From NCBI GenBank assembly GCA_963580285.1, contig OY757010.1, positions 74,442,858-74,506,857 on the forward strand: DNA of 64,000 nt, given 5' to 3'. Numbering within the stretch: the first letter of the stretch is position 1; each line of letters begins with the position of its first letter. The position numbers and the translations under genes are program-made. Below, one piece after another: positions 180 through 56,330 of this stretch. The notes under the pieces are model-generated. The model was not told the DNA's origin. It ran no database searches and saw nothing but the letters and a program-made list of their open reading frames with translations. This stretch comes from Lucinisca nassula (lineage: Eukaryota > Mollusca > Bivalvia > Lucinida > Lucinidae).

Positions 180-299
180 CTCTTCATCTCGAATATCCTT
201 GAGGGTGTAGCTGACAACACAGATACCCATGTTCACTAAGTCTGAGGAGGCAACATCAAACACCTGCTTGGAGAACTTCTTACGATCTTTGTAGATTTC
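180..299 (-). CDS. FLOT1: FLOT1 coding exon 5 (residues 120-159)
   Basis: On the minus strand, tattttccag at 310-300 is the acceptor and GAG|gtaaag at 180/179 the donor. The 120 bp between them are 40 whole codons, phase 0 at both ends. They begin [20 protein letters not shown] and continue with the flotillin-typical LVNMGI and [13 protein letters not shown]. In the family this is the distal part of the SPFH domain. The next exon (alanine/glutamate-rich coiled-coil start) is not found between 179 and 1, so the gene continues off the left edge. Reading on past the donor would continue open for a while, but the sequence stops resembling flotillin exactly at the GT. Confidence 0.95.
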
Positions 300-3200
300 C
301 TGGAAAATAAAGAATATTGGCTTTTCTCATGTGAATCTACAATAAAGCTCTATCAAAGGAATATGTGCCAATTTACATCTTCAAACCAAAAAGACAGGCT
401 TTTTCTTCAGTGCTGTTTTTTTTTAAATGTCACTATGACTTTATATGGCTGGCTGATAGTTGGCTTGGGGTTTAATGACATGTTGACCACAGAGCTCTAG
501 ATAAAAGGGAGTAAAGGGTATTTCAGCATTGAATTTTTGGAACTCAGCATTGAAATTTAATTTGAAGGGTAAAATACTCAATAAAATTTTGGGTTTCAGC
601 ATTGAAATAAATATTAGAGGGTAAAATTGTCACTGGAGTTTACATTTTTAACAGAAAGCAATTACCTTCACATTGCAGTAGCAGTATTCTAGATCAGTCT
701 GGGTCTATCCCTGAACATAAAGAGAAAATAAAGCTTGGCATTCCATGTGAATTGTCTGCCTAGCAGACAATTCACATGAAATGCCAAGCTTTATTTTCTC
801 AGAAAACCAAAAATAGATTGTTTTACCAAAATTGGAATTTTGTATCCTGCTCTTACGTTTGGTTCTTCAAAAGTTAAGCATTGCATGTGGGCATTTAAGC
901 ATTAAGCTTTCAAGCAAAGGGTAAAATAGTCATTGTACCAAATTCTTATCTGGAGCAAGGGACCATTGTGGTTCATTTTGTGATATCTCCCAGAGAAAGA
1001 GATGGAAGAGATAGTGGAGAGGAAAGAGAGGGACAATGCAGACCTCCTCCTAGAGGAGCAGTCTGATCTTGGTCCACACTGTCTTAAAGAGCACAATTTT
1101 TGTGATTGGTATCTTAAAGGTTAAAGGATAAGTATCCTTAACCCTTGTTCTGCTGAATATTTATATAAGCCACACCACTACTGATTATTAGCCAATCAGA
1201 TTACTAGATTCAAATTATTGCAACAAATTCACAATCTGAATGACAAACAATGTAGATCCTGATCAGATGGCTTCTTCAGAAGCCATCTGATCTGGATCTA
1301 CATTGTTTGAAAGTTAAGGCATATCCGGGCTCAGCAGGACAAGGGTTAATCCTTTTTAGAAACCTACGCTTTGAGTACTCGCCAGAATCACATCAATGAG
1401 GGGATTCCAACATGTATCCACAAAACAGGCTTTTATAAAGAAATGTTTTCAGAAGAAAACTATGTCCCCCACCATAAATTTGACCCAAAAAACTGTGTGA
1501 CCTTGAAAATGAGGTCATGATCACTATAGAATAATCAAGTCTCTGTTAAGCTGCTATGGTTTAGTTTGAGTTGTTCCATCAGCACAGGAGATAAAACAGA
1601 GCTATTTTGGATCAAAATTTGAGATTTTTGGGGGAGTATGTAACCTTGTAAATGAGGTTAACCCTTGTCCTGCTGAATATTTTAATATGCCACACCCACT
1701 ACTGATTATCAGCCAATCAGATTACTTGATGCAAATTATTGCAGCAAATTCATAAACTGGACAGCAAACAATGAAGATCCTGATCAGATGGCATCTTCAG
1801 AAGCCATCTGATCTGGATCTTTATTGTTTGAAAGATAAGGCATATCCGGGCTCAGCAGGACAAGGGTTAATTAAGAAAACCAAGACCTAATCAAGACCTG
1901 GGTATGTGCAAAATATTTTGCACCAAATCTGACCAGAATTTATAAATTGGGTTTGGTTTGGTTTGTTTGGAGCTTAACAGCCCAGACAATACCAGTAAGG
2001 TTATTTTGAGACATTTTACAAACCGTAATGATCCTAAGTATTGGGTTAGACAGGCCTAAGCAAACAGTGGACACCCAGATCAGACTGCTCCTGATCAGGA
2101 TCTCCACTATTTGCCATTCCATCTGCACTTTTTGAAACCCTTGCATTGTAAATTTAACCGCCGAAAGAAAGAAAATTTTCAGATGCAAATTGTGATATTT
2201 TTCTGATTTCTGCTCAGAATACAGATTGTGGAAACTCATTAGAACCGCCTCAATGAGGTGGTTCTAACAAGTACCTACAACCTATATTTTAAGAGCAGAA
2301 ATAAGAAAAGTAGGGTGTACCCCTGTAAACCCAGTTTTACTATATAAAAGTGGGGTTCAAGGGGACAGAATTATATAGGCATGTTTTTGCGATGAACTCA
2401 CTGAGGTGAATATCTGACCAAAGTTAAATGAAAATATATCAAAAGGTTCATGAGATACGAGCCGACAAGAAAAGTGTTACAGACAGATAGCATAAATATG
2501 TTAAACTTCAATTGTGACCGTCACCTCAACTTGACATGGTTGAATTATGGCTTCAGCACACCATCTCACTATATAGTACAATTTACTGCCTGATGTTGTG
2601 CCTGAAAAAAGCTGGAGGAATGGCAAACAGTGTAGACCCTGATGAGACGCCGCGTCCTGCGGCGTCTCATCTGGGTCTAGACTGTTTATTCAGGCCTGTC
2701 TGTCCAAATTCATGGTGTAATTACTGTTTTTCATACCTCAACTGTCATGTTCCCCATAATGGCTCTTTGGTGACCTTCCAGTGTTTCCTGGGCCACCTTA
2801 CGAATCTCGTTCTCCGATTTACCGAGGAAGAGCTCGCATGCTGCTGCCAACATCTCCTGACTCTGGCCTTGAATCTTAACCTGCCAATACAATACGACGA
2901 TAGCAGTCAAAAGCAAACATAAAGTGAGGAGTACATGACAAGATCTGCCATGCATGCAGCAAGCCAGCTACCTGGAAAGGGGCCCACTTATGTGGACGTT
3001 GCCCCTTGTACCTGCACGTTAATCAAAAATCCGTTGATGATGATGATGATGACATGACAGCTTTAGGATAATTTTCTGTATTTTTTCCATTAAAGTAAGT
3101 TGTTCAGCACTTACGAAAATAGAATAAGCTCACCCAGTACCTACCGGACATAGCTCCAGATAAGGCGAAGTGCGTGTGTTCTGTGTTTTACATCCCTCCA

Positions 3201-6200: not shown

Positions 6201-9200
6201 CTGGTAGTCATAACATTATTATGGACTTTATTGACCATTTCTGGGGTTGCAAGATTGACAGGCCTTCCAGGACAGGGGTCATCCTCAAGCCTCTGTCTGC
6301 TGCACTTAAATTCCACCACCCACCTTTTCACTGTAGCCTATGAAAGGGCATCTTTCCCTAGTATTGCTACCATGAATATCTTTAGGTGTTAAACCTTTTT
6401 TATGCAAATATTGGATCACTGCTCTTTCACTGATTGTGTCCATTTTGCAAAAGCTGCTCGTCTTGTTTACTTTAGAGTGCCAAAACGATATAAACTGACC
6501 AAATGAGACCAATCCTTGGGTACACGGCCCTATATGTATAGAAAGAGAATAGTAGGACTTAAAAAGAACATCCCTGCATACCTCCTTTAAATACGAGGCT
6601 CACAACATATCAATCAGTCCTCGTAACTAGCTGTTTAGAAGATGTCATCCATCAGTAACATATTTAAAACAACAAAGTATGTATCATTGCTCTCATCTGT
6701 TTGACATCAATTACATCATTAGTAAAACACATAAATTCACTGAATCAAGCATTACCCTTGTAAGTTTGAATGTAGTTACGGCCAAACTTCAATAACTCGC
6801 TTGTAAATTTGAATGTAGTTACAGGCAAACTTCAATAATGTGCTTGTAAATTTGTATGTACTTACAGGCAAACTTCAATAACTCGCTTGTAAATTTGAAT
6901 GTTCTTACAGGCAAACTTCAATAAAGTAAATTTGAATGTACTTACAGGCAAACTTCAATAACGCTTGTAAATTTGAATGTATTTATAGGCAAACTTCAAT
7001 AACTCGCTTGTAAATTTGAATGTACTTACAGGCAAACTTCAATAACTCGAATACCTTCAGGATGATGAAATTTTTTTCGAGATAGGGGTAGCTCAAACTC
7101 ATTAGGGCTACTCATACTGCCAGCCATGGGATGACCTCAGGATATACTTTCAACTTTTTATAAAATAAAGGTGTGTTATGTGTACTCATTAGAAGCGCCT
7201 CAATAAGGCGCTTCTAATGAGTACACACAACATACCTTTTCAAGATAAAATCAAACATCCATAAATCAACCTAAATACATGTATATTCAGCAGTTTTTGG
7301 GAGAATTCTCTGCTGACTTCCGAACGAGTTTGAATTTGCCATGGTAAATGAGCCATTCAGGTTCGAGTCATCGAAATTTCATTGTATGCAGTTTCTCTCT
7401 CATTATGCACTTTCGCCCCCGCCCATAGGGGCTTGAAGAAATATATGGGCTGCATGAGGCTTCCACGCAGAGCTGAATCCGGCCCACACACTAGTACTGT
7501 TAAACCGCTTAGAGGATCTAAGCCTGTCCAGGAACTGTGGTGCAAGCGGACCGTCCATGCTAATAAACCCTATTGGTTTCATTGGGCGACAGGGCTTGAG
7601 ATGTCATTTCATCTCAATGTTGGGTAAAAGTCCCACAAAATTGGAAGCAATGTCTCCAAAATGACCTTTACAGTGTTGATTGGGACGTTAAACCTCCAAT
7701 CAAACAAACAAATCATTATGCACTTCATCGTTCAAACATACTCTATCAACCCTAAAGATTTGGACAACGAAAGGTGCATACAAAATTGTCTAGCAAACAG
7801 TGTAGACCCAGATCAGACTACTCCTGAAGGAGCAGTCTGATCAGGGTCTGCACTATTTGCAACTGAGTAGAAGTCTTCACGGCAAATATCTATAATTGAT
7901 AATGTATGATACTAAAAGTGTCCAAACACTTAAGGTAAATATGGTATGGTTCAAACAAGCAAGATAAAACATACCAAACAAGCAGAGAATGTTATACAAC
8001 ATCATAAAGGTGAGTGTTATGAGTAAGACACAAAAAGCCACAACAGAAATAACAACAACACAAAATAAAAGTAAAACAAAATGGAACACATCCTTTTTTG
8101 TTAATTTGAAGTTTAATCAAAAATCAAATACATGTATCCTCATCATGCTGAACATTTCAGTATGCTACTCTCCTACCCAATTTTCAGCCATTTCTGATGC
8201 ATGATTTCAACTTTTAACACAGATTCTAAAGCAGAACGGTGGAAAAAAACAAGAGGCCCATGGGCCACAATGCTCACCAGAGGTCTAGTTTATACCATAT
8301 ACAGACATGGAGCCCATCTTGGTCATGTGACAACAACAGGCTACCATGCAATCAGTAAAATCCACTGTCTTGCCCTTTTATCCATACACATGTCTAAGTG
8401 ACCAAATCTGACATAAAACAGGTCAAGGTCAACCAAAGATCATCATTTGAACAAAATTGTATACCACCTTTCAAGGTCATCAGTCATTTGGTTCCTGAGA
8501 AGAAGATTTTTTAAGGTTTTTACCATATATGGGCATGGTGGCCATATTGGTCATGAGACCCAGTCATTACGAACAAACTTTCGTTCCCACTTCCCACAGA
8601 AGCTCGCCATGTAATTTGGTTTCAATCAACCTAGCAGTTTGAGTAGATAAACAGATTAAACTACTGAATCTGAGCAATCCAGGACAAAGGTCAGCAAATG
8701 ACCTTAACTTTTGGAATTGACCAAACTTCCATTTTTGCCGTTAACCATTAACCGTTTGACGCTTATGACCCAAAAAGAGGGTTGACGTGTCGTTTAACAC
8801 GAAATCATCACTATCATCATTACACTTCCATTCAGCTGATTGCAAATATCATTTCTGATACAGTACCACAGGCTACCATGCAATCAGAAAAATCCACTGT
8901 TTTGCCCTTTTTCCATATAAATGTCTAAGTAACCAAATTTTACCTTGACGTAAAATAGGTCAAGGCCAACCAAAGGTCATCATTTGAGCAAACTTGGTAG
9001 GGCCCGAGTCCCCAATGATGCATACAAAGTTTCAAGGTCATTGGCCATTTGGTTCCTGAGAAGAAGATTTTTAAAGGTTTTTATCATATATGGGCATAGC
9101 GGCCATATTGGTCATGCGACCCAGTCCTTACGAACACTTCCAATAGAGGCTCCACATATAATTTGGTTTCAATTGACCTAGCAGTTTAAGTTGAGAAGAA

Positions 9201-12200
9201 GATAAAAATACTGAATCTGAGCCTTCCAGGACAATGGTCAGTAAATGACCTTGACCATTGGAATTAATAAACTTCCTTTCCGCTGATTGCAAATATCATT
9301 TCTGATGCCACAGGTTACCATGCAATCAGAAAGATCCACTGTTTTGCCCCTTTTCCATACAAATGTGCAAATTTGACCTTGACATAAAATAGGTCAATGT
9401 CAACCAAAGGCCATCATTTGAACAAACTTGGAAGTGCCCGAGTCCCCGATGATGCTTACCAAGTATCAAGATTATCGGCCGTTTGGTTCCTGAGAAGAAG
9501 ATTTTTTAAGGTTTTTACCATAAATGGGCATGGCGGCAGTCTTGGTCATGTGACCAAGATCCCATGAACAAACTTTCTTTCCCCCAACCCATGGAGGACC
9601 CACATGAAATTTGGTTACAATTGGCCCAGCAGTTTCTGAGAAGTTGTTTGAAAATGTTGACGCCGACGTGGACGGGGAGGCAGACACTGACGGCCGACCA
9701 CTGCCTATACTATAAGTTTGAGCTAAAAAAAACAATATAGATCCTGATAAGCTGGCTTCTCAGAAGCCAGCAGATCTGGATCTATACGATCTGGATCTAT
9801 ACTGCTGTCAAAAAGGGATATATCTGGGTTCAGCATGGTTAAGATTAACATGATGTACACTGTCTTCATATGAATCTGTAGCAGTCTACAGGGTTAATAC
9901 AGAATGCTTTACAAATACAGTCAAACTTCAATGGCTCGAACCGCTTTGGGACCATAAAACTTTATTCGAGACAGGGGTAGTTCGAGCCACTGAGGGTGAT
10001 ACTTTTGAACATCTTTTCGATGTTATATAATGAAAATGTCGTCACCTTAGCGCAAAAAGTCAATAACTCCAATACAAATGTATTGGAGTTATTGACTTTT
10101 TGCGCTAAGGTGACGATGTATGCTGTGTGTACTCATTAGAATCGCCTCACCGAGGCGATTCTACTGAGTACACACAGCATACATTTGAAAGATAAAAGAC
10201 TAAAATCTCCTTAATCATCCCCACCATTTCTTTTTTTGAGGATTTCCCTAGGGGCTCAAGAACTAGTTCTACCCAGCCATGGTAAACGAGCCATCGGTGT
10301 TCGAGTCATCGAAGTTCTACTGTAAGTTGACGGGATAAAGAAGCACTGTACCAGCATAAGAACATTCAAAGCAATATGGAAAAGTAAAATGTTAGGAAAG
10401 GTTTTGATGAGTTTATAAAGGACAAACCTGTTAATATGACCAACACAGCTACAAAACACTACAAATGCAGTATCATAGGTGTGAGAAGAATGTGAAACAT
10501 CGTGTCATTCTTCCAAACTCTAGCATATCAGGAGAAAGAATTTCATGTCATGAGAATCTAAGAATGGGAATGGTCTTAGTCAAGACATTAACAAAAGTCT
10601 CCATAGTTTCAGCAAAGGGAAACCAGCATGGAAAAGTAGAGACTTTGTACCCAACTTTTTGTACTGAAATCTAGAAATGATGTTTAAATAATCTGTGTAC
10701 TTTTGTTAACAAAGTTGTTAGTGCACTTTTTCTGAAGCTGCATGCTGCACTTTACCCATTAATAGTATGTGCGGTGCTGAGGTTATGAAACAATTTTATT
10801 CTCAGCTCAACCAAGCATGACACTTCCAAATACTAACTCTTACAGCGCCATGGAAAATTTATAGAGTAGAGGAGACAATTTTTTTACTTTTACCTAAAAT
10901 GCCAAAGTGAATGCTTATTTTCCACGAATAATAAAATGACTTTGAAAATATCATCTGTAGTTCCGATTGGTTGAGGGTTAAAATACCAAAAAAAAAAAAA
11001 AAGTTTTCTTCAGTCATGTTCAGAAAGGTAGATTTTGCTATTACTGGAGCCATTAGACCAATATTAATTGTTGTCAATTTTTATGAGAGGGTTCATTCTA
11101 TCTTAAGTTGAATTAATGCTCCAGGCCTAGCTTCTGTGTTATATGACATGAAATACTTTAAAACTTGCAACTAGACCTTTGCAGGGAAGCAAAATGCAAT
11201 AAAGAACATCTTACTTGAGCTATTCCTGTAACGGACACACCTACACCTAATTGTGTGTATACATTGTGAGAGTCTATTAAGAGTGTGAGAACATTCAACG
11301 ATAATCTGAAATGAGCAAGTAAATACTATTTCCTTAGCAATGAAGAACACCATATGATTGCCTAAGACAATAAATCTAACAGTGTGAATCTGATGCCCAA
11401 TAAACACATCTGTTATGGAAGAAGTCACTTTTTCAACCCATCTGAATCTAAAAAAAAAATCAAATATATGGATTAATGCCAGCAACACTATTTTACCTTA
11501 CCTTTAATCCAGTTCTTCAAAACAAACAATGTGGTTGGATAGCAATATGGCAAATACAGTCGAACCTCGATGCCTCGAAGACCGATAGCTTGTTTGCCAT
11601 GGATGTGTCGAACCCATTCTTGGGCCCCTAGCGAAATCCTCTACTTAAGAAATAGTGGGGATAATTAGAGATTTTGGTCTTTTATCTTGCAAATGTATGC
11701 TGTGTGTACTCATTAGCAGGGCTCTAGAAATTTTGAAATCCCAATCGGTCCAGAAGGTGACCAAAAATTACGGAAATTGCCGATCGGTTTCGGTAATTTC
11801 CGTAAACGCCATTGGCGATTTGCGATTTTAAAATGTGTTATTAACGCAAAGAATGACATGCCGATGTTCCTCTTACACTTGTAAACGGATATGAGCACCA
11901 GTATCTTGATTATAAACAGCAATTATTGCTCACATCGTTAATATTTCATCTACTTTCATTTTCTACGCTAGATTTGATCTACTTTCATTTTCCCAATATC
12001 CGGGTCACTCCGAACCTGAAGACTACTAAAGGGAAACAACCTACATGGGGCAGTCAGAGACCAGTTCGATGGTCACTATATTTTTTCCCCTTTTTAAAAC
12101 CTTTAAAATATTTCTCTTATTTCACGCATTTTATTTTGCCCAAATTGCTTTGTTTACAAATGGCGACCGATATGGCAGACACGTGGTCGGAAAATGACGT

Positions 12201-15200
12201 CATACGGTTTCCGTTTACACAATACACATTAATGCAGTCAAGGACGTAACACACATACACCTGTTTTATGTCATTTATTTTAATAGAGCGTATTTCTAAA
12301 AAAAACGTTTTGAACGGGTTAAAAAATCGAAAAAACATTTCTTTACTCTCGAACCAATACATGGCCGAACGAGAGTCATTGAAAATCTTACATGGCCGAA
12401 CCAAGTTTTAAAGAATATAAATACATATTTTACGAGTACACAAGCCTGAAATAAACAAATTATGTTTGATTGCCATTAGATCAAACACGATCAAGGCTTC
12501 TTTGATATCAGAATCACGCACCGCTTAATCACGTTTTGGCTGACTGTCCCGCGAGAGTCTGCGATACCTGGCGAGATCTCGAAAACGTGTTTACTGTCAA
12601 ACTCAAATTCATCCCCGAGAGAGATAATTGGATTATATTACTGGCACAATAAACAGTTTGACACCTAACCAGGTGTAATTTCTCTGTTTTTCACTTCGAT
12701 TTTAGCTTACTGGGTTTTTTTTCGGACCGATTTTTCAGCAAAATTTTTCAGCAAAATCGGTTTTCATTTTCAAAAAACGGTCTGGACCGGTAAAAAATCG
12801 GACTTCTAGAGCCCTGCTCATTAGAATCGCCTCAATGAGGCGATTCTAATGAGTACACACAGCATACATATTCATTATAGAACACCGAAAAGATGTCTAA
12901 AAGTATCTCATTATGCCTCCTGACAGTAACCTCAGTGGCTCGAACTACCCCTGTCTCGAACAGATTTTCGAGTTCCCAAAGGTGTTCGAGCCATTGAAGT
13001 TCGACTGTACACTAAAAAATTTGCTGAAAACTACCTCTTTAGTAGGTATTGTACATATGTACTTGCTATGTTTAGTTATTACTTACCACTTACCAGTATG
13101 TCAGCTTCTGGGTGTCAATTTAGTCTTAAGAATGACCACTTACCGTAAAAGGGAGCAACATTACTGTAGTTTGAATGTATTGGGCCCATGGGTTCAGGAG
13201 TTGTCATTTAAAGCAAATTGCTGATACCGCACAGAACAGGATGGAACCAGAAGATGAACAACGATCTATCACATTAGCTCACCATGAGTATTTTGGGTCA
13301 TGAGCAGTCTGTGCTCCTGTGGGCTAAACATACAATGGATCAGTCATTAGTCTTGTTTAAAAATATCCAAAGTTTGTATGTTTCAGATGCTTTTTAAATT
13401 TTCTGAACAGAAGGAGACTGGCAGCGAAACTTTCAAATATACCTTTGTAAGGAAAAGTCCTACATACTTTCTCATTAAAAAAATAAATTCTACAGTCGAA
13501 CTTCAATGGCTCAAACTCGCCGGAACCGCCGAAAAAAGTTCAAGCTATTGAGTCCAACTCGGCAAGATCCATCTTTGTGTACTATGATTTTTTATCATAG
13601 CTGCGGCGATTTTGGTGACTTCCGGTACATTTATCAGTCATAATTTAAGCCACGTAGTATACCTTTCGCACTTTCTGGCGACCTCCGACTTTGACTTCTG
13701 ACCTTTTTCGACCTCAAGAATCGCTTCATACTTTTCCTCAAGCGTCTTTTGTTCCAGTTTTCTTTGTATTCCCTGTTTTCCCGCTGCCGATCTGGGTATC
13801 CCCCCCGTTGCCGGGTCCTTCACCAGATTGCTCGGCAGTGCCAGCAGAAACCTCCGATCTGGGTATCCCCCCGTTGCGGGGTCCTTCACCAGATTGCTCG
13901 AAAGCTGACGTTCTCTCTGACATGACTGCAGGAGTGAATGATGAGCCGTTTTTTTTGGTCTGTATTTTAAGGCAAAGACTGTAATTTTGGCAGGTCTTAC
14001 TCAATGTCGGTGTTAAATTTTAATTTGTGAAAAATATTTTGCCAGCTTTAATTTCCTTATGCCGCCTCATTAGCCCTGGGTTATTATAGGTGTTTACAAT
14101 AAACTTAATTTGACACCTTCTCAACAATAATCTCTTGACCTGTTGATCAAAGTGATTGCGCCAATCAAGTACACCTGTGTTATGTAAACAGCTGTTTCGG
14201 CAAGACGCTTTGTCAATATCAAAGCGTCTTATGATACTGTGCAACTTGATCGATAAAATTTGAATTTTTAAAAAGGTAATTAGTGAGACCCATCGGTGGC
14301 ATTTTACATAGAAAATGCACTCTAGGGACCAGGCTTAGAGTTCGAGGGTTCGAGCCATCGTGGTTCGAGCTAAGGGTGGCATGTTTAGTTAAAAAGAATA
14401 GGTATTTTGCCGGGACTGAAAAGTCAGTTCGACCCAAACGTGGTGTTCGAGCCTACCGAGTTCGACCCATCGAAGTTCGACTGTAGTTTCTATCCCCAAT
14501 GAAGCACTTTAACAACTACCAAACTGAACAAAATTAAGATGTTTGACATGAAGATATACATGCACTCTGTACTAACAATCTCTTACTTGAGCAATACCAG
14601 TCATTGAAACTGCTACCCCCAGTTGTGTGTACACATTATGAGATTCTATTTGCAGTGTCAGAAGATTCAGGTTCATTCTGAAATAAGAAACCTATCTCAT
14701 AAGAAAGCTATGAACAATCTGAAGAAGCCGACCGAATAAAACTAGAATATTTATCCATCTTAACTGGAAACATAGGCCAACATAAAAGGGACACAGGCCA
14801 ACAGTGCAGACCAAGATCAGATGCCACTTAACCCTTATCCCGCTGAATAATTAAATTAGCCACAACCATTTCTCATTTTGAACCAATCAGATTACTTCAT
14901 GTAATCTATTCCTGCAAATTCACAAACAGAATGTCAAACAGTGTAGATCCTGATCAGAAGGCTTGTTCAGAAGCATCCGATCTGGATCTACACTGTTTGC
15001 AAAGGTAGGTGTTGTCGTGAACAGCAGGATAAGGGTCAATGCAGCATCTGATTGGGGTGTACAATGAGCATTTGCTAACGGGATTTTCCGTCAAAAATGG
15101 AATAAAAAATGACTAAGCAGATACGCCATCCATAAAATGACAAATGGACTTGCCCAATCTATAAAAAAAGGAATAGTCCGCCAGCATACAATGGGTAAAA

Positions 15201-18200
15201 AGAAGCTGCATTCCTGTCTTAACACCTTTCATCCCTTTCAATGGACTTTTCTATCTTTGAATTTGGCTTGGAGTTTAACAGCCAGTCAACACTATCAAGG
15301 TCATTCTGAGCCATCTGATCTGTATCTACACTGTTTGCAAATGTATGGGTTAAGGTCTGGTTGAGCTCTGAAAGCCTCACATCTTGGATGTGTTGTTAGG
15401 ATATACTGAACAAGAGGTCCAAATAACCTTGGATGATGAGTCAGAAGTTACTGGTGTGTGGTGTCAACCCTACGACACATGCAAAAACAAACCATAAGAG
15501 ATTAAAATTGATACACCAAGTGGTTTTTTTGTAAAGCTAAGTATTTAAACCTACAATAAGACATGTGCACCCAACGAAGACTCAGATCAGCCTGCACATC
15601 CGTGCAGTCTGATCAGAGTCTTCGTTGTCTGCTATAAGGATAGCTAAGGGCCCAATGCTACTTCATGCAACAAGAGAAGTGTCTGGTTAGACTATATGGA
15701 TGCGCAGGCTAATCTGAGTCTTTGATGGGCATGCATGACTTATTGTAGGTTTTGTCTTGCACTGGCTCATTTATTTTCTTAACTTTGCATCACATGTATC
15801 ATATGCAATATTCTACCATCCCCAGTCATGCACGGGAAGAGATCTCAATCGTAATATGCACTACTACAGTCTAACAACACATAGTTGAAAACATTAATTT
15901 CCACCTAGAGCCACTCTTACCTTTTTAGTAGACTATCTGTCAATCTCTGTCACTCGCTAAGTACTATTGCAACTTCTGTCACAAAAACAAGTAAACTTAC
16001 CGTAATGTTAGCTGAATCATATCCACTCACAAGTCCAATATGTCTTTTTGTTAATATCACTATTTGTTAGTATGAGAGGCAAAGATACAAGTAATCCAGC
16101 ATGCTTGCTACAAGGAGTTCCAAATATAGGTACTCTAGCTGATGAAAGAAGTGATGTTAAGGATTCTCAAGTGCTCAATGCTATACCTGTGCTATGCCTG
16201 TAACTGAGACGGCTACACCGAGCTGTGTGTAAACATCATGGGAGTCTATTGTAAGAGTTAAAACATTCAGAGAAAGCCTGCAAACAGAAGTCCATGTATC
16301 AAGTCACATATACCCGTAAACCTTTATACAAAAGATTCTCTGGTACTGAAGGTCTATTTTGTCTTCTGGGGTTAGCAAAGTGTAAATGACAACTTTCTTG
16401 ATCAGTACAAACTTGTACTTGGTCAAGGAAAGGGGGGCTAGAGCAACAAATTATGCATAAACAAATAACCATTTGTCATGCAGAGGTTAAAATTCCAGCA
16501 TTTCTAGATTTTTGTATGCCGAGTGAGACCAGGGCTACAATTCAGTACCTGAGCTATTCCTGTGACATCTACAGCTACCCCTAGCTGCGAGTACACACCA
16601 GTAGTTTCTATTGTTATAGTCACAACATTCAATGAAAGCCTGGAAGCAAACATCATGGATGAGCATGATCATGAAATGATAAGAGCTTCAAATGCTCATA
16701 GCTTCAGATAAGGCGGATTAATAAGGATTATCAAGGAATAATTTTCCTTAATTCTTGTCAGAAACATATGTTGTAGGTACTTGTTAGAATCGCCTCAATG
16801 AGGCGATTCTAACAAGTACCCACAACATATGCTTAAATAGAGAAATAAGAAAAAAAACAACACAAGAATTATCCTCCTTACTCCGCATTTGAAGCTACAA
16901 ACCCCAACCAACCATCTGCTAGTTCCGCAGACTCTTTTAACAGATTCAAAGCTTAAAGCAACAGCTAAACCTGGCATACAGTCTATTCAGCCATTTTTAC
17001 AAGGGAGGCAATTTTTGTGAACTTTCCTGTTTCTTTTTTTTTTCTCCTCTTCATTTGAGTCACTCCAAAAAGGGGTCTACTCCTTTTAGCTATTTAGGTA
17101 AGGGGCAGCCTAGGCAACATTCCTGTGAAGTTTGAATGAAATTGGCCCAAGAGTGTAGGAGGAACTTTCATTCAAAGTAACTTATACAGGAAAAAAATTG
17201 CTCTAAGGATAGATTTTGTTTTGTATGATTTTAGGATTAACATCCCCATCAACACTGTAAAGGTCATTTTGGAGACATTGCTTCAAATTTTGTGGGACTT
17301 TTACCCGGCACTGAGATGAAATGACATCTCAAGCCCTGTCGCCCAATGATACCAAAAAGGTTTGGCATGGATGGTCTGACTCGCACCGCTTTGCCTGGGC
17401 TGGCTTTGATCCTCTAAGCGGTTTACCAGTACTTGTGTGCGGTTGGTTTCAGCTCTGCGTGGAAGCATCATGCAGCCCATCTATTTCTTCAAGCCCCGAT
17501 GGGCGGGGGTTAAGGGTAGAGCTACTTATAAGGGAGTATAACATGTTTGAAAGTGTTGTCTCCATTTCCCTAAAAACCAGGCTCTTTTTTATGATGGCAG
17601 CAAGTTCATAGCAATAACATTAGCTGTCTTTACCATTCCCACTGGGGTCTCCAGCCCACCCCAGGGAAAAAAGGATAACAATACAAACACATGATAAATG
17701 CTGATGGAAGTGAAATTCACTAGCCGTAATGTTCCTGAGTAGTCGGACACAGGTCAAGGCAAACAGTGCAGACCCACATCATACTGCTGGAGCAGTCTGA
17801 TCAGGATCTACACTGCCATTTCATCTGCACATTTTGGACTCCTTACCGGATCATAGAACATATTTGTTAAAATTTTAGGAGAAATACAGCAAGTCCTCAG
17901 GGTATACAAATTTTTAAGATTTTTAAAAATACGTTTAACGGTTTTCAAACACTAGATGATACTGCTATGAAGCCGGAAGATGAGATGACATGTGATCACA
18001 ATGAATACAGAGAAAATAAAGAATACCAGGCTGATTTAAAAAATATGAACACAAAACAATATCTAACATGAGGGGACAAACTTTCAAGGGGGAACAACTC
18101 TATATAAAGTGGGTTTTAATGGGGTGTACATTACACTGACTTGTTAAGGTGATTACATGTAGTTGGATAATTTGTGATAAAATCTCATTCCACAGTCACA

Positions 18201-21200
18201 TGATGACTGTAGATAATTGTTGGAAGCCAATTATATGCCCCGCAATATTCTGTTCTGTTCTAGGACTCATGGGACAAAGCAGATAATATCTGTCCTTGTC
18301 CTATTTACATTCCCATTATTTCAGAAATTCAGAAATCAATGAGGATCATCCAACAAAGAGTCGGGGAACTGTTGCTTTGTTTCCTTCTAAAAATTCAGGT
18401 AAAACAAAGCCCTCTGAAACGGGTTCTAAATTAAAAGGGTATAATTTGCAGATCAGAAGCAAATTATAATCTGCAAGAAACATAGAATGCCAATCACGAC
18501 AACTGTCATCTGCTTTGTCGTCTGCCGGCTAATTTAAAAGCCATTGTTGCAAACTGTGTGGACCCAGATCAGACTGCTCCAAGGAGCAGTCTGATCTGGG
18601 TCCACACTGTTTGCCTATCAGCAAAAAATCAATATTCTGAAAATAGGCAGACAATGTATTGAACAGACGACATTTTTAGACCCAATTTTCTCGACTTCTT
18701 CAGGATTAACAAGGGACACAAGGTATTTTTGAAAGAGTTGCCACCCCTGGAAATTTGTCAATACCCAAAATAATAATGCTGTGGATAAAACTAGAGTGCT
18801 CTACTGTGACATAACCACAAATGTTGCAAATAAAACACCATCTTCTGAAATAAACAAGCTCATTAATAAGAATGGATACATGTTTTCTATTTTTTGTGTT
18901 GATTATTAACCCTTTTGTATCAAATGGAATCTTCCTCTTTATATACAGCAGGAGTTCATTTCAAAATTTAGGGGTGTCAGGCTGTGTTTTCATCAAAATT
19001 TGTTTTGGAAAATGACTGAACTTTTAGCAAACAGTGGAGACCCTGATCTGGGCCTACACTGTTTGCGAGGGTACCCGTTTTGGGGTATCCCGACTGAAAT
19101 GGGTTAATCAACCCCTATATTGCAGCACCTTCATTGCTATTGTCCACATGGTTATCACTGACCAATTAAGCTTTCAGTATTATTTCACCCTTTTTGTACT
19201 GAATAGACTCTTCCTGTCTGCATGTATATGAAGCAGAGTTCATTTCAAAATCTAGGGGTGTCAGCTTCAGGAGTTTTTTTTTTAGAAATTTACACCACAA
19301 CCTCTTTATAACACTATTAAATTGGTGTCTAAAGCAGAAACCAAGTTAGTTAAACAACCATGCTACATGTTTGTTTGTTTGTTTGATTTGATGTTTAACG
19401 TCCCCGTCAACAGTGTAAAGGTCATTTTGGAGACGTTGCTTCCAATTTTGTGGGACTTTTACCCGACATTGAGATGAAATGAAATCTCAAGCCCTGTCGC
19501 CCAATGAAACCAATAGGGTTTATAAGCATGAACGGTTCGGCTCGCACCGCTTTGCCTGGGCAGGCTTAGATCCTCTTAGCAGTTTACCAGTACGCTTGTG
19601 CAGTCGGACTCAGCTCTGCTAGCCCATTAATCACATGGTTATTATTGACCAAATGTAGTTGTCCGTATTATTTCACCCTTTTTGTACTGAATACTCTTCC
19701 TCTCTATACAGAGCAGGTTCAGTACTCTTCCTCTCTATACAGAGCAGGAGTTCATTTCAAAATCTAGGGGTGTCAGCTTTAGTTGTTTTAGAAATTTACA
19801 CGACAACCTCTTTATACGAGGACTGTTCAAATATGAATGCAAGTAGAACGTTTTGCTCATGCACGAATGCGAAAATCACCTGGTAATAAATATCATAGCG
19901 TAGAAAAACATTTTACCTATACATTGATACCAAACCTGTTAAAATCCGTGCACTTTAGCCAGGTCAGAGTACGCCGTTGAAATACGGTCCTATATTAAGA
20001 ATCGTTGTATTCTTGGTATACGGTGCAAAGACATTTTTGATGAAATATGTTCGGTTTATGGGCATAATGAAATGTCTTTTCCGACAGTTTTTCTTTGGTG
20101 TAAGAAATTCAGCTGTGGGCTAGGCTCAACAGAAGATGCACCACAAGATCGTCGGCCGAAAACAGCAACATTTGCCAAGATGGTTGCTTGAGTGAAAGAA
20201 ATAGTTGCTACCGATGCACGATACACCACTAGGCAAATAGCTAGTATGGTTGGCATCTCATTAGGAGCAGCTCATACAATTCTGAAACAGGATTTGAAAA
20301 TGAGAAAGATCTGTGCTAGTTGGATTCCCCATCTGTTGACAGATGAGCAGAAATAGACACGCGTTTAGTGCGCCAAGAAGTTGCTTAAAAAGTTTCGAAA
20401 TTACAATGCACGATCTTTCGCTAATGTCGTTACAGGTGACGAGACATGGGTTCACCTTTTTTAGCCAAAACGAAAGATTCAGAACAAAATATGGGCAACA
20501 AAGTATTGCAAAAGACCATGCATTGCAAAGCGGACCATGAGCGTCAAGGAGGTAATGTATGCCATATTCTTTTCAAATCAGGGCCCTGCTATTCAGGTTG
20601 CTGTGCCTAAAGGCAAATCTGTAAATGCGAAGTTTTACAAGAATAAAGTTCTTCGAAAATTGAAGAAATATTTCAAAGAACGAAGACCCGCAACTGGTTT
20701 GGCCAATGTCAGATTGCTACATGACAATGCGTCATCGCACAAGGCGTTCATTGTGCAAGACTATCTGAAGCAGGAAAAGGTTGTTGAACTCCCTCACCCC
20801 CCGTATTCCCCTGACCTTGCCCTGTATGACTTTTTTTTTGTTCCCGTGGCTGAAAAAATACCTTTCTGGTCGAAAATTTGTACAGCGCAAACACCTTGGT
20901 TCTGCAATATTCCAGTGCCTTCATAGTATACCTCGAAAAGACTACCAAAATGCGTTCAATGATTGGATCAGAAGACTGAAAGTTTGTATATCTGTTAAAG
21001 GGGAATACTTTGAGGGGACAAAATAAATTTTTCATCGAAATCTATCACAGAATCATTTTTAAAAGCTTAGTTGCATTCATATTTGAACAGTCCTCGTAAC
21101 ACTTTTAACCCTTTACCACTCAGACCCGTGTTTCGCCGTATCTATCAATTACCACACCGACCCGTATATTTACGTATCTATCCATTACCACTCCGATCCG

Positions 21201-24200
21201 TATTTGCCCGTATATCGGCCATTTGAACAAATACGTGTTTTCCCGTGTCTCAAAATCAATCGCGTCATTTTTACCTTTTTCCTAAATATAAAAACGCCAG
21301 AAATGTTAATGTTAAATGTTAATGTTAAATTAATGTTTATTAATGTTAAGTCTGGTCTTTTGCCAACAATATTTGCGAAAAAAACAAATATGTTTCTACA
21401 CAAAGTTTTTGTGTAATTTACAACCAAACACACCAGGGGTTTCTTCTACTGAATCACGATGACCTTGCCTAACCGTAATGGAAAATTACTGGGTTGAGTT
21501 ACTGAATGACGCAATATTTGTGTGTCGGTCGCGCATGATTTGCATGATTTAGGTAGAGACAATTAGCGCTGTATAATCAGTTAGATTCAAGGGATTTGTG
21601 GTTCAAGATAATTAGTTAATTGGGGATTATGATACCCTAGGAATGTTTATACAGCGGATGCCACCCGGAGCGTGCCGAGCATTGAGCCGCAATAAATTAC
21701 GTAACAGTACCCAAAAGTGTACCCAGGTGGTCATCGGAAGGGCAATAAAACCCACAGATGGGTAGAAGGCCTTTCATTGGTCAATAGTTTCAGCCCCTTT
21801 AATGAATATTAATGTCTAAAAAAAAAATATGCGACGTCTGATCAGGGTCTCACCGCCAACACGTTAACAGACAAACAGATGCAATTATTAAGCGGCACCT
21901 GATCAGGGTCTTCAGGTTTTTGGACCTTATAATGCTACGGCACCCGGATCAGACCCTCCACAATTATTGCCGCGACGTCTGATTCAGCTCCAACCGCCGA
22001 CGGTTCATTTTATTTTATTTTCCGCGACCGAACAGGTTTGGAGGATATAGCGACCGTCCAAATGTCCGTCAGTCCGTAGACACAACAGACAGATGCAAAC
22101 AATGCAGACTCGGATCAGACGCTGTACTATTATTGAACGGCGTCTGATGAGGGTCAGCATGTTTGTACAAGTGATCTGAGACGGCGCAGACCCAGACAAG
22201 ACGCTGCGCAACGTTTATGCGGCGTCTGATCAGGGTCTTATCGGCGACTGTGGTGTTTTTATCCCTAGTCTAAACAGGTTCGGATCCTGGCGTCCGTTCA
22301 TTCGCCCGTTCGTAGACACAAAATTATGAGTGACAAGACGCTGCGCAACGGTTATGCGGCGTCTGATCAGGGTCTTATCGGCGACGGTACTGTTTTTTAT
22401 CCCTAGTCTGAACAGGTTCGGAGCCTGGCGTCCGTTCAAACGTCCGTCCGTAGACGCAATAGACATATGAAAACAATGCAGATCCGGATCAGATGTACAA
22501 TTATTAAACGGCGTCTGATGATGGTCTACATGTATGTAGACGGTATCTGAGACGGCGCAGACCCGGACAAGACGTTGCGCAACGACGCGGCGTCTGATCA
22601 GGGTCTTATCGCCAACGGTGGTGTTTTTTTTAACCCTAGTCTGAACAGGTTCGGGGGATATAGCGATCAGCGTGGCGTCATTCACCCAACCGTCTGTATA
22701 ACAAAAGACAGAACACAAAGGTGCAAACAGTGCAGATTTGAATCAGACGCCATACAATAATTATACGGCGTCTGGATAGGGTCTACAAGTTTGTAGACGG
22801 AATATACGACGGCACAGACCCAGACCAGACGCTGTACAATGATCATGCGGCGTCTGATCATGGTCTGACCGCCGCCGGTGCGTTTTATTTTTATCCCCTG
22901 ACCAAATAGGTTCGGGGATATAACTATCAGCCTGGCGTCCGTCCGTCCGTCCGTCCGCAAACAAAATTATGAGTCTGGCGTCCGTTCACATGTCCGTCCG
23001 TTCGTCCGTAGACACAACAGACAGATGCAAGCAATGCAGATAAGAATCAGACCTGTACAATTATTAAACGGCGTCTGATGAGGGTCTACAGGTTTGAAGA
23101 CGGCATATGGGTCGGCGCAGACCCGGACAAGACGCTACACAACAATAATGCGGCGTCTGATCAGGGACTAATTGCCGACGGTGGTGTTTTTATCCCTAGT
23201 CTGAACATGTTCGGGGGATATAGCGATCAGCCTGGCGTCATCCACTCAACCGTCTGTATAACAATAGACAGAACACAAAGGTGCAAACAGTGCAGATTTG
23301 AATCAGACGCCATACAATGATTATAAGGCGTCTGGATAGGGTCTACAGGTTTGAAGATGGCATATGCGACGACACAGACCATGCGACGTCTGATCATGGT
23401 CTGACCGCCGCCGGTGCGTTTTATTTTTTATCCCCTGACCAAATAGGTTCGGGGATATAACAATCAGCCTGGCGTCCGTCCGTCCGCAAACAAAATTGAG
23501 TCTGGCGTCCGTTCACATGTCCGTCCGTCCGTAGACACAACAGACAGATGCAAGCAATGCAGATTCGAATCAGACTTTAACAATTATTAAACGGCGTCTG
23601 ATGAGGGTCTACAGGTTTGTAGACGGCATATGGGTCGGCGCAGACCCGGACAAGACGCTGCACAAAGGTAATGCGGCGTCTGATCAGGGACTCATTGCCG
23701 ACGGTGGTGTTTTTTATCCCTAGTCTGAACATGTTCGGGGGATATAGCGATCAGCCTGGCATCATCCACCCGTCTGTGTGTATAACTATAGACGGAACAC
23801 AAAGGTGCAAACAGCGCAGTTCGGGATCAGAGCCCAGAAAATTATTATAAGGCATCCGATCAGGGTCTACAGGATTGTAGACTGCACAGACCCAGACCAG
23901 TAGCTATCAACCTGACGTCATCCACCCGTTAGTCTGTATGACAATAGACAGAACACAAAGGTACAAACAGTGCAGATCGGTATCAGAGCCCAGACAAATA
24001 TTATAAGGCGTCTGATCAGGGTCTACAGGGTTGTAGACAGCACATGCGATGGACAGACCCAGACCAGACGCTGTACAATGACCATGCGCATCAGATGTCA
24101 TTGCACCTCAGTGTTGGGTAAAAGTCCCACCAAATTGGAAGCAATATCTCCAAAATGTCCTAAATAGTGTTGATGGGGATGTTATACCTCTAATCAAACA

Positions 24201-27200
24201 AACAAATCTTATTTATAAAAAAAAAAAAAAAATACAGAGACGGCTCTTTGGGGTGAGCTGGCTATGGGCTGGTTGATACATTTATTAAAAAAAAAAAAAG
24301 GGTAAAGTTGGGGATGGGGGTCCAAAAAAGGATAGATAGGCTGTAATAGTTATTTTAATCTTATGCAAAAGTACTGATTTTTTTCATAAACAAAACACAC
24401 CCATGTGTCATAGCACATTCTTTAATTTCTCCAAAATGGCTACTTTTCCATTGAAAACTTTTATATTTTTCTTATTTATACTCAGAACATAGGTCGTGGG
24501 TGCCGATTGAGGCAGTTCTAACGAGTACCCACAACCTTGGTCTTGGTGCAGAAATAAGTAAAATAATGTATACCGGGTTCAGATAGATGTTCATTTCACA
24601 GACTTATGAACATGATCTTATTTCTGCATAAAAAGTATGTTATGGAAACTTGTTGGAAGACCCTCAGTGACATGCCCTAATGATTACCTACAAATACGTT
24701 TTTTTCGCGGAAATAAGAAAAATAATACGTGGATACCCCCTCTTTTCTGGGGCTATGGTGGTTAAAAATACTTTCTCTGACCAACCCAAAACAGAAATTT
24801 TTGCTAACGAAAATATTTTGCTTACTTTGACACTTCATATTTTCAAAACGCAAAGAGAAACTATAATAAATTTAGTACCATTGGAAAGAAAATTTAATTT
24901 CCTAGAAACTTTACATTTACATAAATATTGTCAAATGTACAGAAAATACTAAAATAATCATTTTTGTAACATAAGGGTGAAAATCACACAAAAAATGCCA
25001 ATATCTCTGTTCAGACGGCCGGCCTCGGTGGCTCAGTCGGATGCGCGTCTGACTGGTGATCAGGAGGACGCGGGTTCGACTCCCGGGGTCGGCAACATTC
25101 TTTCGTGGAGATTGATCATGAAATCTTTTCTACGGTCATTCTCTCCCTTCCGCTGATTCAAGAAGGGCAGTTGTCAGTTTCTGGCAAAAGAATGTGCACT
25201 GTACTGGTTAACCGCTTACGTATAAGCCTGCCCAGGAAAGTGTGGATAGGTAAACTGACCGGCTCAAAAATGACCTACATAGTGTTGACTGGGCCGTTAA
25301 ACTCCAATACAAACAAACAAACAAAACAAATCTCTGTTCAGATAAGACTGTCAGGCCTATCAGCCAGATATGGACTATTGGTTATTGATTTACCTATATC
25401 AGTGTTCTGTTAAGATGCTGTATTGGATAATTTTCTGAGTGGTAAAGGGTTAATGGGGTCCAAAGCAAAAATCATGTTAGTTAAACAACTTTGCTTTATC
25501 CAAACAAAAATGTATAGATACTTTAGAAAAAATGACCATATATGGTCAAAATGATTATATATGGTCATTTTTATCCCCACTCTTTTCGAAGAAAAAGTGG
25601 GGATATGTTAATGGTCTTCGTCGTCCGTCTGTCCATCTATCTTACTGGATAACTCCTCCTGGAAGGTTATAGATAGAAACTTAAAACTTTGGGGACTGAT
25701 AGATCTTTGGTCTGGGGAGTGCATGACACTTTCGGAATTTTGATCACACCCCTAGGGGTGGGGTCCGCGGGGGTTCAAAAATCAAAATTTCCAGAACATG
25801 GTCGTGTAACATATCAAAGCGAACGGCATGATGAGTAGAAAACATTACAACCAAAATTTGACCCCTGGGGAAAATTTTGAGGTCACCAGAGGTCAAAAAC
25901 TGATTTAGACCCCTTTACCCCCATACATTACTGTTACAGGATAACTCCTCCTAGACAGTTATAGATAGAAACTTGAAACTTTGGGAACTGATACATCTTT
26001 GGTCTGGGGAGTGCATGACACTTTCGGCATTTCGATCCTACCCCCGGGAGTGTGGCCAGGGCTGGGGCACCTGGGGGGGGGGGGGGGGGGGGGGGGGGGG
26101 GTAAAAAAATCAAAGTTTTCAGAACATGGGCGTGTAGCATATTAAATCGAATGCCAGGATGAGTAGAATACAGTACAATCAAAATTTTACCCCTCTGGCC
26201 AAACGCCCCTAGGGGATGGCCCAGGGGGTGGGGCCCGCGGGGAAGCTTGGGGATATGCAATGGCTTGCCATCAACTGCGAGATTCTAGTTTCTATATAAT
26301 CTATACATATGAAACTGTGTTATAGCCAAAACTATGGTATAAGGAACAGTGAGGTCATGGTGTATTTAGTGAATGAATTTTTTTGCAAACAGTGAAGGCC
26401 CAGGTCAGGAGATGCTGCTGTATGTCTGATCTAGGCCTGCACTGTTTGCCAATGGTCTGTTTTGGGGATCCATGTGTAAAATTGGTTAATAGACTGATCT
26501 TTCCAGACCAAAGTCAGGGACAACAGACCTACCAGTCTTGTCTAGGGCTGGCTAATCGGAGCTGAAAGGATAATCGGTTATCAGTCCTGTCATTGCGATC
26601 AATAATCGATTAATAATCGCTAAGGTTTTTGTCATAATTTTACCTGTCTGGCTTCCTTCTGAGCATGACTCTTACCATATGTTGCACTTTACCAAATGTG
26701 TATTTGAACAGACAGGCCTGAGCAAACAGTGTAGACCCAGATGAGACGCCGCAGAATGCGGGTCTCATCAGGGTCTGCACTGTTTGCTACTCATCCAGCT
26801 ATTTTAGGCATAACTTTGGGTAGTAAATTGTACCTATCAAGTAATCGATTAAAAGCAAATCAGAAATGATAATCATTTTTGTTGAATTTATCGATCGATT
26901 AATCGATTATACGATTAATCGTGTCAGCCTTAGTCTTGTCAGTGCTTTGAGACACAGTTGCAACTTTCTAATTAATTTCTTACAACTGCTGAAAAACGGG
27001 GTATTCTTAAAGGAAAGAATTTCATCCCAAGGAGCTAATTCTCTCCTATAAGACTCGACACCTTATTTTGTAAAAGACCAGCATGTTTGAAAGAGATGCC
27101 TTCTTTGTATCCATTCCACTAAAACAATCATATTAAAATACTACATGTACAAATGTAAATAAACATGTTCACTAACCAAGCATTTCTAAAATAACAGACA

Positions 27201-30200
27201 TATTTATGTAGAAACTCAATTGCAAAGGAATGTTACATCTCAATACACATCCCTAACCAATACTTTCTTTTGTCTTTACGAAAATATGATTTGTCTTCCA
27301 CATGATAAGAAATGAGATTCTTTTCACACTGGACCTCTATAGTGAGATCAGAAAGTTTCATAACATAGATTTCAATATGATCATGTTTTTTTATTGTTTT
27401 TTTCTTTCATGCTTACAATAGCAAATAAATACAAAATATGTCTGTCATACAGATTTTAAAACCTAGAAGCAAGCTCACAAATGGATAAATAATAAACACA
27501 ATATGGTATAACATGAACATGAGTTGACACCCAAATAAAACAAACTTTTTCACATCTCCAGATAAGGTGTGGTAACGAGGACATTTAACCGGGTATTGGG
27601 TCTATCCTTTTTTTTTCATTTTTTATTCTATTTCTGACCAAAAAATCTTGTTAGCAAACAGTGTAGACCCTGATAAGATGCCGCATATGCGGCATCTGAT
27701 CAGGGTCCACACAGTTTGCCCATGTCTCTTATACTGATTTCCTGGAAAAAGGGGGGTTAAGACCTTGAGATCATTTTAAATCCGCTTCAAAAACCTCACT
27801 GAGATGATTCTAAAAAATACCCACAACACGTTTTTCAATTTTTTGTATAGAAAGAAGAAAAAAAGTCTTTGTCACCATCCCTTGTCTAGAGCTGTGTTGA
27901 ATTTATTATCATCAGACTTACTTGGGCTATACCAGTTACTGAGATAGCCACACCATACTTGGTGTAAACCATTGGGCTCTCTATGGCCAAAGTCATCGTA
28001 TTAAGGTTCATTCTAAGTTAGCAGCAAATAACATAAACCAAAATTACCCTTTAAAATTCACATTTGCATCAAATAACATTTGTATGGAACAGATTTTCAT
28101 TCAAACTCACTCTTATACTATGGGCGAGTAACCGAGCATAGAGCTATAAGTTTTTGACAAAATATCTAATTTATGAACAAAAACGATGGCCATATAATAT
28201 CTCACCAGAGTTCTGCTGAAGGCCACAACCCATAACGCACCAGTATGGGCCAAATCTGACATACAGTATTTACCGCATGTATTTGGACAGACAGATCTGA
28301 GCTAACAGTGTTAATCCAGATGAGATGCCACAGAATGTGGCTTCTCATCAGGGTCTACACTGTTTGCCACTCATCCAGCCAATTAAAGACACAGCATCGG
28401 GTAGTAAATTGTACTTGTTCAAAGTTCAGGGCATGTTTGGTAAGGAGATGAAGTGTCCTGGGGCCAGTTGTTCAAAACTAACGTCGTTAGTTAACGTATC
28501 GTTAAAATTTTGATCATTTATTATGGCAAATATGCTAATATTTTTGCTGAAAAAATGTGAGCAGCTGTTGCATTCGCAAAAGCTGCTCACATTTTTTCAG
28601 CAAAAATACCAAAAATTTTACATATTAAACTTGCTAGAACAGTTAACAATATGACCACTAACAAGCTCGTTAAACTAACGATGCTTTGAACAACTGGGCC
28701 CTGATATCTAAGGTAAATACAGTAAACTTGAAACTTAGATTAACACCATGATCAGAGAGGGCACAGCAACAATGAAAACAAATATCATTTTTAATACATG
28801 AATAGCTAAAATTAGAATCTTGGTGTGCAAGACTTTCACTGCTCCGGCTGCTCATGCTCTTTGCTATAATGTCAATAAACAGAGATACCAGACAGTATGT
28901 TGTCCCTAAAGAATTAATTGTACAGCAGGGTGCTACACCCTGTTGCCCTTCTGACCCATCCTGCTGTCATTTTGGCCCACCCTGTTGCCTTTTGTTGGTT
29001 TGAAATCATTTTTATGGTGAAAAATTGCAAGAACAACTTTTAGTGTATAGAAGCCCTTGATCATCATGATAGCAGGGCTTTATCCAGGCAGGGTTCGCGC
29101 TAGGAATTTTTTTTCTTTCGCCATCACTTTCGCCAATCTAATTTTTTTTGAGCCAAAATCTTAAAACCTGAGCCAGTTGAAGAAACTTCTTCGCAAAATG
29201 CAGATCATGGATAAAAAAGATCTGCTCTACAATTTTCTTTGGCACTTAAAGGGTTGAAGCTTAAATGCACAGACTGCCTGTCCTTTTGTGGCCTTTATGG
29301 ACGTGTGTAATGGGCTGTAGGTGCGCCTAAAGACCCCAGGTTTTTCGATCAAACCAACACGGTCACACGTCAAACCAGTCATCTATGCTGTCTTGCCGAC
29401 AGATAGCTTAGCAAAATCCATAGACCAAAATCATTTAGATAGCTTGAGTTTTCCGACTTCCAGCGGCATTACCTTCTCTCCCTAAAATGCAACAAAACCT
29501 TGCTTAAATGCATTTGTTTTTGCTCTAACTAGTAAGCGTTGTTAGGTCATGGAGGCTGCCATTTTGGTTGATCACTTGATCACATTACCGTAAAAATTCG
29601 GCTATAAGACGAGGATTTTTCCATCCAAAATGAGCCCCAAAAATGGCCCCGTCTTATAGCCGAGGTCATGGACTGCATGCTTTTTTCCGGCGAAGACAAG
29701 ATACACGGAAACAGCCGATCGGTGATTTTGAATTGATATAAAGCGCCGCCCACAAACCACCGCTACCATTTAGCTGCACAGGATCGGTAAATGACGTCAT
29801 CCGACACCAGCACCCAAACACGTATTTAATGTCCTTGTGTGTATCTATTTCATTAAAAAAAAAAAAACGTTAGGAACTGGGTAAAAAATATTTTCGCGAT
29901 AGCTAAACGTTTGTGAATAGAGGTGGATAGAAAACCAGCGCTATGCACAGCTCCCGAATTATCCCAAGAAGCTCCGTGTCAATAACCAACAACAGCGTTC
30001 GACTTTTCCGGCTCAGCGTCTGCTATTTGGCGCCAAAACATAACCATACATGAGATCGTAGAAAAGTCCATTTTTATTACCGTTAGATGTAGCTAATTGT
30101 CTGAGGAGCGATTAAATTATTTTCACATTGATTGCGGATTAAATTTTATGATTGACATAACTTGACCATATTTTCACACCTTATCGACACGCACCGCAGG

Positions 30201-55830: not shown

Positions 55831-56330
55831 ACGAGAAGGGTATACTCCCAGTTCTTTTGGGAGTATGACTGAAATATCTTTTAATTATACTAACCTTCTT
55901 TTCGTACTGTGGGCTACAAACTCATTTGACCTACTTTGCTTATCTTTTAACGGGCTGAAATCTCATGCCCCATTTTCTTGCCCAACATCCTATAATCTAT
56001 CCATATTCTGACGTTTCAGTGAGTCACCTGCATCTCTAATTTCCCGGTAGCAAACTTTCTTTCTTTCCTTTCTTCCATTACTTCTTAACCTCATAAGAGG
56101 ACTACAGAAGGGTATCGGGTATACCAAGTGCTAAAGGGAGTTAGCTGAAATAAAAGATAAGTAGGTGAAATTAGTTTGTACAGTGCGAAAACATCCGGAA
56201 TGGGTGTTCGAGAGCGATTAAATAAGCTTGAAGCTTCCATCGCAATCGAACTAAAATAAATTAGTATAAACTAAACTAAAAGAAGGTTAGTATAATTAAA
56301 AGATAAAAACAGATCTAGAGTCTGGTGATT
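55800..56330. repeat. Inverted-repeat unit around a small LINE-A fragment
   Basis: ttttaattatactaaccttc (about 55,880) and gaaggttagtataattaaaa (about 56,284) are inverted, as are ctactttgcttatcttttaa and aaaagataagtaggt. Between them, 55,935-56,060 is LINE-A RT sequence (minus). It is probably a MITE pair, or an element that acquired the fragment. Confidence 0.6.

Follow-up and report, generated by a model that had tools for sequence, protein, structure and literature searches.

Why would a clam keep five versions of a single exon in the gene for a membrane scaffold protein? The question is raised by the flotillin-1 (FLOT1) gene of Lucinisca nassula, which runs on the minus strand of the window, a 64-kb piece of contig C1 from a 2.93-Gb genome; with the flank that we added, 144 kb were examined. 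A sequence-only reading of the window had proposed that five 91-nucleotide (nt) exons between exons 2 and 4 are mutually exclusive versions of exon 3. We conclude, with a probability of roughly 0.88, that this FLOT1 gene contains two clusters of exons that arose by tandem duplication and are used in a mutually exclusive way. Alternative use of one exon-3 copy out of five is strongly supported by the frame logic of the transcript, by the constraint on the copies, by the contrast with an orphan block of copies elsewhere in the genome and, above all, by the isoforms of other species.

Exons 1, 2, 4 and 5 and the five copies of exon 3 lie in the window, and exons 6-10 lie in the flank. Coding exon 1 (16 residues, 50788..50833, minus) was placed by tblastn with human FLOT1 and by its splice borders. 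The single-copy exons 2 (37396..37471, minus) and 4 (2737..2880, minus), also placed by tblastn and splice borders, are where the earlier reading had put them, and provide the donor and the acceptor that are common to all the exon-3 copies. Between them are exons 3.1 (27922..28012), 3.2 (16549..16639), 3.3 (16187..16277), 3.4 (14587..14677) and 3.5 (11215..11305), all on the minus strand and exactly at the positions first reported. Every copy is 91 nt long, has AG before it and GT after it, is in the same phase and holds an open frame of 30 codons. Copies 3.2-3.5 were recognised by their borders, frame and constraint, and 3.1 by its borders, frame and orthology; within the window they find one another by tblastn at E values of about 1e-7 to 2e-13. 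The likely last exon, at window-relative position -33845, reads NIRSSIRRQ followed by a stop; a pattern scan gave four candidates, of which this one resembles clam C-termini.

The encoded protein has the SPFH domain and the flotillin body, and is nearer to FLOT1 (571.8 bits to the human protein, 9bq2_B) than to FLOT2 (361.1 bits, 9l3g_a). Among named flotillins, the two best scores belong to those of Ruditapes (89%) and Mercenaria (88%), both venerid clams. The encoded protein is the same as vertebrate flotillin-1 (human, PDB 9bq2 and 9l3g) along its length, although human FLOT1 is not known to have more than a single version of the segments encoded by exons 3 and 6.

Exon 3 is not the only duplicated exon. 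Two copies of exon 6, each 96 nt long, lie 902 nt apart and about 10 kb past the end of the window, on G000:C1 at window-relative positions -10009..-10104 and -11007..-11102. They share 25/32 residues and have near-identical donors (AAG|GTGATAG), and the donor of exon 5 (180..299, minus; found by a search of the window and flank, with its splice borders) can join either. Exons 3 and 6 were the only duplicated ones among the 10 coding exons tested in the 144 kb, where neither a sixth exon-3 copy nor duplicates of other coding exons were found at E ≤ 0.01, the short last exon being outside this test. All 10 pairings of an exon-3 with an exon-6 copy give a frame that is open up to the end of exon 10. 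The expectation of at least five proteins that differ only in residues 42-71 needs a correction: residues 160-191, encoded by exon 6, are a second swap site, and because both exons are duplicated the gene could make 5 x 2 = 10 proteins rather than five. Each messenger RNA would take one of the five exon-3 versions and one of the two exon-6 versions.

The strongest evidence comes from other animals. The segments of exons 3 and 6 were taken from proteins listed by similarity search, and from the first list of 120 proteins we hand-picked 15 same-species sets; the 10 sets of equal length were counted column by column and the five of unequal length were excluded from the count. The zones used, columns 41-73 for exon 3 and 157-193 for exon 6, are slightly wider than the exons. 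In 9/10 of the equal-length sets all the variable columns fall in one or both zones, with none elsewhere. Both zones vary in Haliotis rufescens (seven models; 9 exon-3 and 4 exon-6 columns), H. cracherodii (four models; 8 and 4), Mytilus californianus (four; 12 and 8), M. trossulus (three; 8 and 8) and Bradybaena (three; 6 and 7). Sinanodonta (three models) varies at 13 columns of the exon-3 zone only, and Littorina, Biomphalaria and M. coruscus (two models each) at 6, 8 and 8 columns of the exon-6 zone only. The H. rufescens model X7 was absent from the lists and the Sinanodonta protein P0121 (395 aa) was excluded. Names of the type ‘isoform X’ are given by annotation pipelines, whose models rest partly on RNA sequencing.

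The tenth set, six models from the brachiopod Lingula, varies at 10 columns of the exon-3 zone and at five in the exon-2 region. The latter comes in two versions (P0064, P0067 and P0068 versus P0072, P0074 and P0075), which have Cys or Gly at the place of human Cys34. We take Cys34 to be a palmitoylation site, and the two versions are a possible lipidation switch by exon choice.

A search for swap pairs, which retained pairs with at most six differences outside the segments, extends this further. Proteins P0177 and P0204, of 450 aa each, come from metagenome contigs of 1848 and 1849 bp and differ at 11 positions, all in exon 3. The unbroken frames are so long for contigs this short that they suggest complementary DNA. 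Beyond exon 3, the nearest of 20 named flotillins are those of cricket (81%), bee (79%), Daphnia (78%) and salmon louse (78%), and this arthropod-like pair may represent the same exon-3 swap outside the molluscs. Not every set of related models fits the pattern. Among the five sets of unequal length, those of Babylonia and Solemya, with 43 and 72 differences, have the look of separate genes, and those of Nephila and Centruroides differ near the C-terminus only, as do pairs from Macrosteles, Rhynchophorus and Hyposmocoma; none of these are exon swaps.

How old are the exon types? Exon 3.1, which we call M-type, shares more residues with its counterparts in Sinanodonta (28/30), Dreissena (27) and Mercenaria (26) than with its own sister copies (16-21). 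A tree of 45 exon-3 peptides places the M-type sequences together in a single group, whose 10 rows come from five bivalves, a limpet, an abalone, a sea slug, a land snail and a chiton (support 83/86), and exon 3.1 sits in the bivalve part of this group (98/81). Copy order appears to be conserved as well: automatic models that fuse two copies match the order of the present gene, with an M-type followed by an L-type exon 3 in Plakobranchus and a K-type followed by an A-type exon 6 in Batillaria. Judging from the M-type grouping and the conserved order, two or more types of exon 3 probably already existed when chitons parted from the rest of the molluscs.

The copies themselves tell a similar story. 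Their DNA is 53-73% identical in pairwise comparisons and they share 16-27 of 30 residues; the proportion of synonymous differences (pS) is 0.59-0.86 and that of nonsynonymous differences (pN) 0.11-0.35. Since the synonymous sites are near saturation, the copies are evidently old. A blastn comparison of the copies, each extended by 1.5 kb in both directions, gave exon matches among 3.2-3.5 that stopped within about 12 nt of the borders, and no exon match between 3.1 and 3.2-3.5 at the DNA level; the other matches join positions that do not correspond and resemble dispersed repeats. A simulation of neutral decay gives a yardstick for the 16-27 shared residues. When it started from copy 3.3 (4000 runs per distance, point changes only), the frame stayed open with AG and GT in 4.5, 1.2 and 0.5% of runs at 0.6, 1.0 and 1.5 changes per site, and the survivors kept on average 9.6, 5.6 and 3.5 of the 30 residues (maximum 19, 14 and 10).

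These results bear on the best of the alternatives, that the gene depends on one or two of its copies and the rest are relics no longer spliced. The divergence is indeed uneven: the branch of exon 3.2 (0.64) exceeds those of the other four copies and its best match among the listed proteins is 22/30, and the donors of 3.2 and 3.3 depart from GTAAG. However, all five copies retain AG, GT and frame despite near-saturated synonymous sites, and the genome provides a comparison. A genome-wide search with exons 3-5, which scored the best candidates only and listed 12 matches, gave two strong further exon-3 matches and a weak one on contig C6. This locus (G000:C6:51944194-51966912) is an inverted duplicate of window positions 8243..17672, an unstranded block containing exons 3.2-3.5 that was found by the genome-wide match, with about 16 kb inserted. 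It differs from the window by 3-7% substitutions in the six aligned blocks measured, and no other FLOT1 exon was found around it in the 70 kb fetched. On C6 the copies of 3.2 and 3.3 keep an open frame, with 29/30 and 30/30 residues conserved, while that of 3.4 is broken by a one-base insertion and that of 3.5 by a 25-base deletion. The block is a natural control: two of four unlinked copies have broken at a few percent divergence, and the five copies in the gene are whole after far longer. We consider it improbable that most of them are relics.

A second complete FLOT1 gene was also considered and rejected, as far as the best candidates for exons 3-5 go. Among the matches listed, exons 4 and 5 of FLOT1 occur at the window locus only, and the search with exons 3-5 gave only this locus, the orphan block on C6 and a separate gene on C16, presumably FLOT2-like.

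Must exactly one copy be used? For exon 3, the reading frame gives an answer. Skipping it leads to a stop at codon 86, and including more than one copy leads to stops at codons 85-105 in all 10 pairs, in all 10 triples and with all five together, the inclusions that were tried alongside skipping (sets of four were left out). The full protein needs exactly one exon-3 copy in every case tried. Because skipping or multiple inclusion brings early stops, exclusivity of exon 3 is at least enforced after splicing, and it would probably hold at the level of RNA. Exon 6 is different, as its 96 nt can be doubled or skipped in frame; since both errors preserve the frame, its choice needs control at the level of splicing. 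This leaves some room for the idea that the copies are used alternatively without being strictly single, an idea which the Batillaria and Plakobranchus models, each with two copies in one protein, might seem to favour. These are single automatic predictions that look like fusions, though; the equal-length sets hold one copy per model and every multiple inclusion of exon 3 that was tried stops early. We judge loose use of this kind to be very improbable, less probable even than relics. Mutually exclusive use of exon 3, as first proposed for this gene, is supported, and each copy is probably used in this animal.

An origin of the copies in assembly duplication or haplotype artefacts, which the second version of the 3.2-3.5 block on C6 might suggest, can be dismissed with hardly a reservation, given the low DNA identity among the copies, a similarity among 3.2-3.5 that is confined to the exons and the recurrence of the exon types in other species.

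The mechanism by which one copy is chosen is harder to read. The introns between copies range from 271 to 11282 nt, and even the shortest keeps the splice sites too far apart to exclude one another by simple crowding, which argues against steric exclusion. Incompatibility of U2 and U12 splice sites was also rejected, as all seven copies of exons 3 and 6 are GT-AG with donors that, judged by eye, are U2-like. We searched for pairing between a docking site and selector sequences in four settings with two measures each and six shuffles per setting, a search of low power in a single species. Two of the eight measures beat all six shuffles, by 1-5 kcal/mol, and in both cases the site lies some 1.39 kb downstream of exon 2. 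For the region after exon 2, the summed energy with the upstream flanks (-127.3) beats 6/6 shuffles (best -122.4), and the weakest of the five pairings (-21.4) is reached by one of six; with the downstream flanks the weakest of five (-22.2) beats 6/6 (best -21.1), and the sum (-131.0) is reached by one. The shuffles mostly peak at this same site, and the signal therefore points to composition. The site is a weak lead at most for control by pairing.

What would the swaps change? In a predicted structure of the Ruditapes protein (mean predicted local distance difference test score, pLDDT, 73.9; predicted template modelling score, pTM, 0.38), residues 42-71, encoded by exon 3, hold the strand 47-57 and most of the strand 63-74, which form the SPFH1 hairpin. 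Residues 160-191, encoded by exon 6, are a low-confidence hinge ahead of a helix of 183 residues. The five exon-3 copies vary at 17/30 positions and the exon-6 copies at 7/32; the latter begin with Gly-Tyr, and this Tyr aligns with human Tyr160. To our knowledge, the membrane target recognised by flotillin cages is unsettled. According to PMC11260169, SPFH1 penetrates one membrane leaflet in the human complex, the human cage consists of 22 FLOT1 and 22 FLOT2 subunits, and Tyr160 lies at the hinge, where its phosphorylation is proposed to start bending. Exon 3 would thus swap a β-hairpin of the membrane-dipping SPFH1. Exon 6 would exchange the hinge that links the SPFH domains to the long wall helix, together with the residues that directly follow the phosphorylated tyrosine. 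Because the swaps hit the SPFH1 hairpin and the hinge, the most likely effect of choosing one copy over another is to adjust, from cell to cell, how the flotillin cage is seated on the membrane and how it bends it.

Several points weigh against this account of two exclusive clusters. It is built on the genome of L. nassula and on the models of other species, and those models are mostly automated annotations. The fork of the M-type group (83/86) is below the firm-support mark of the tool, the exon-3 tree has just 30 columns and 29/42 of its inner branches are open, and copy 3.4 also starts with Met-Asn yet falls outside the M-type group. In the pairing search, 6/8 measures were within the range of the shuffles, and before exon 4 three to six of the six shuffles were equal or better. 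Finally, each oyster species among the models listed has a single exon 3 and a single exon 6, which suggests that some bivalves have not retained the clusters.

The oysters vary elsewhere. The Crassostrea virginica set, the fifth of unequal length, has an insert at the joint of exons 5 and 6, and Crassostrea angulata, Ostrea edulis and Saccostrea echinata, outside the column count, have one exon 3 per species and variation at this same joint. The inserts, in proteins P0027, P0045, P0048, P0060, P0063, P0069 and P0081, are short and variable and immediately precede the Tyr160 equivalent; it looks as though microexons diversified the hinge where exon 6 is single.

Mutually exclusive exon clusters are a known class, of which flotillin-1 would be a new member. 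The defining features are taken from PMC3228551, where only 90/16180 (0.56%) of other Drosophila X exons share them. The copies here are of equal length (5 x 91 nt and 2 x 96 nt), have compatible splice sites and frame (AG/GT and one phase within each cluster, in 7/7 copies) and are homologous within each cluster. Like the clusters of muscle myosin heavy chain and Dscam, they are adjoining internal exons, alike in length, phase and splice type, which code for the same part of a fold; the differences are that the gene is flotillin-1 and that it has two clusters, of five and two. The earlier description of the gene as Dscam-like holds for the layout, a multi-copy cluster from which one member is chosen. 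It does not extend to diversity, as arthropod Dscam has thousands of combinations and is a recognition receptor, whereas this intracellular scaffold would have 10, nor does the pairing search lend it much.

Is the arrangement new for flotillin? Exon-3 and exon-6 swaps can be found in the public annotation of flotillin-1 in Haliotis, Mytilus, Sinanodonta and Lingula, as pipeline models (isoform X1, X2), and we found no published analysis of them in the literature within reach. The earlier remark that no such description was known also stands: a search on flotillin with exons, splicing or molluscs found no account of alternative exons among the titles listed, nor in PMC7760292 and PMC8292550, in a literature where subscription journals were mostly outside the scope.

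Mobile elements are present around the gene. Upstream of exon 1 there are mobile-element frames (51449-57249, minus), of which the one tested is a reverse transcriptase (Pfam RVT_1, 51794-52618), and the FLOT1 introns hold pieces of DDE transposase at 5813-6337 (minus) and 20465-20923 (plus), the latter below the Pfam cut-offs.

A bolder idea, which we offer tentatively and think rather unlikely, is that exon 3 is a recurrent tuning site across animals, with an array inherited from the molluscan ancestor, present in a brachiopod and recurring in an arthropod, and that cells mix versions within cages of 22 FLOT1 subunits and so set membrane grip and bending. If true, a single gene would provide the cages with a cell-type code. 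Several alternatives for the hairpin and for the hinge at the Tyr160 equivalent have been kept, apparently since the molluscan ancestor, and they are ready-made natural swap experiments for testing the role of each piece. Work on flotillin in mussels, abalones, snails and clams may be work on mixtures of isoforms.

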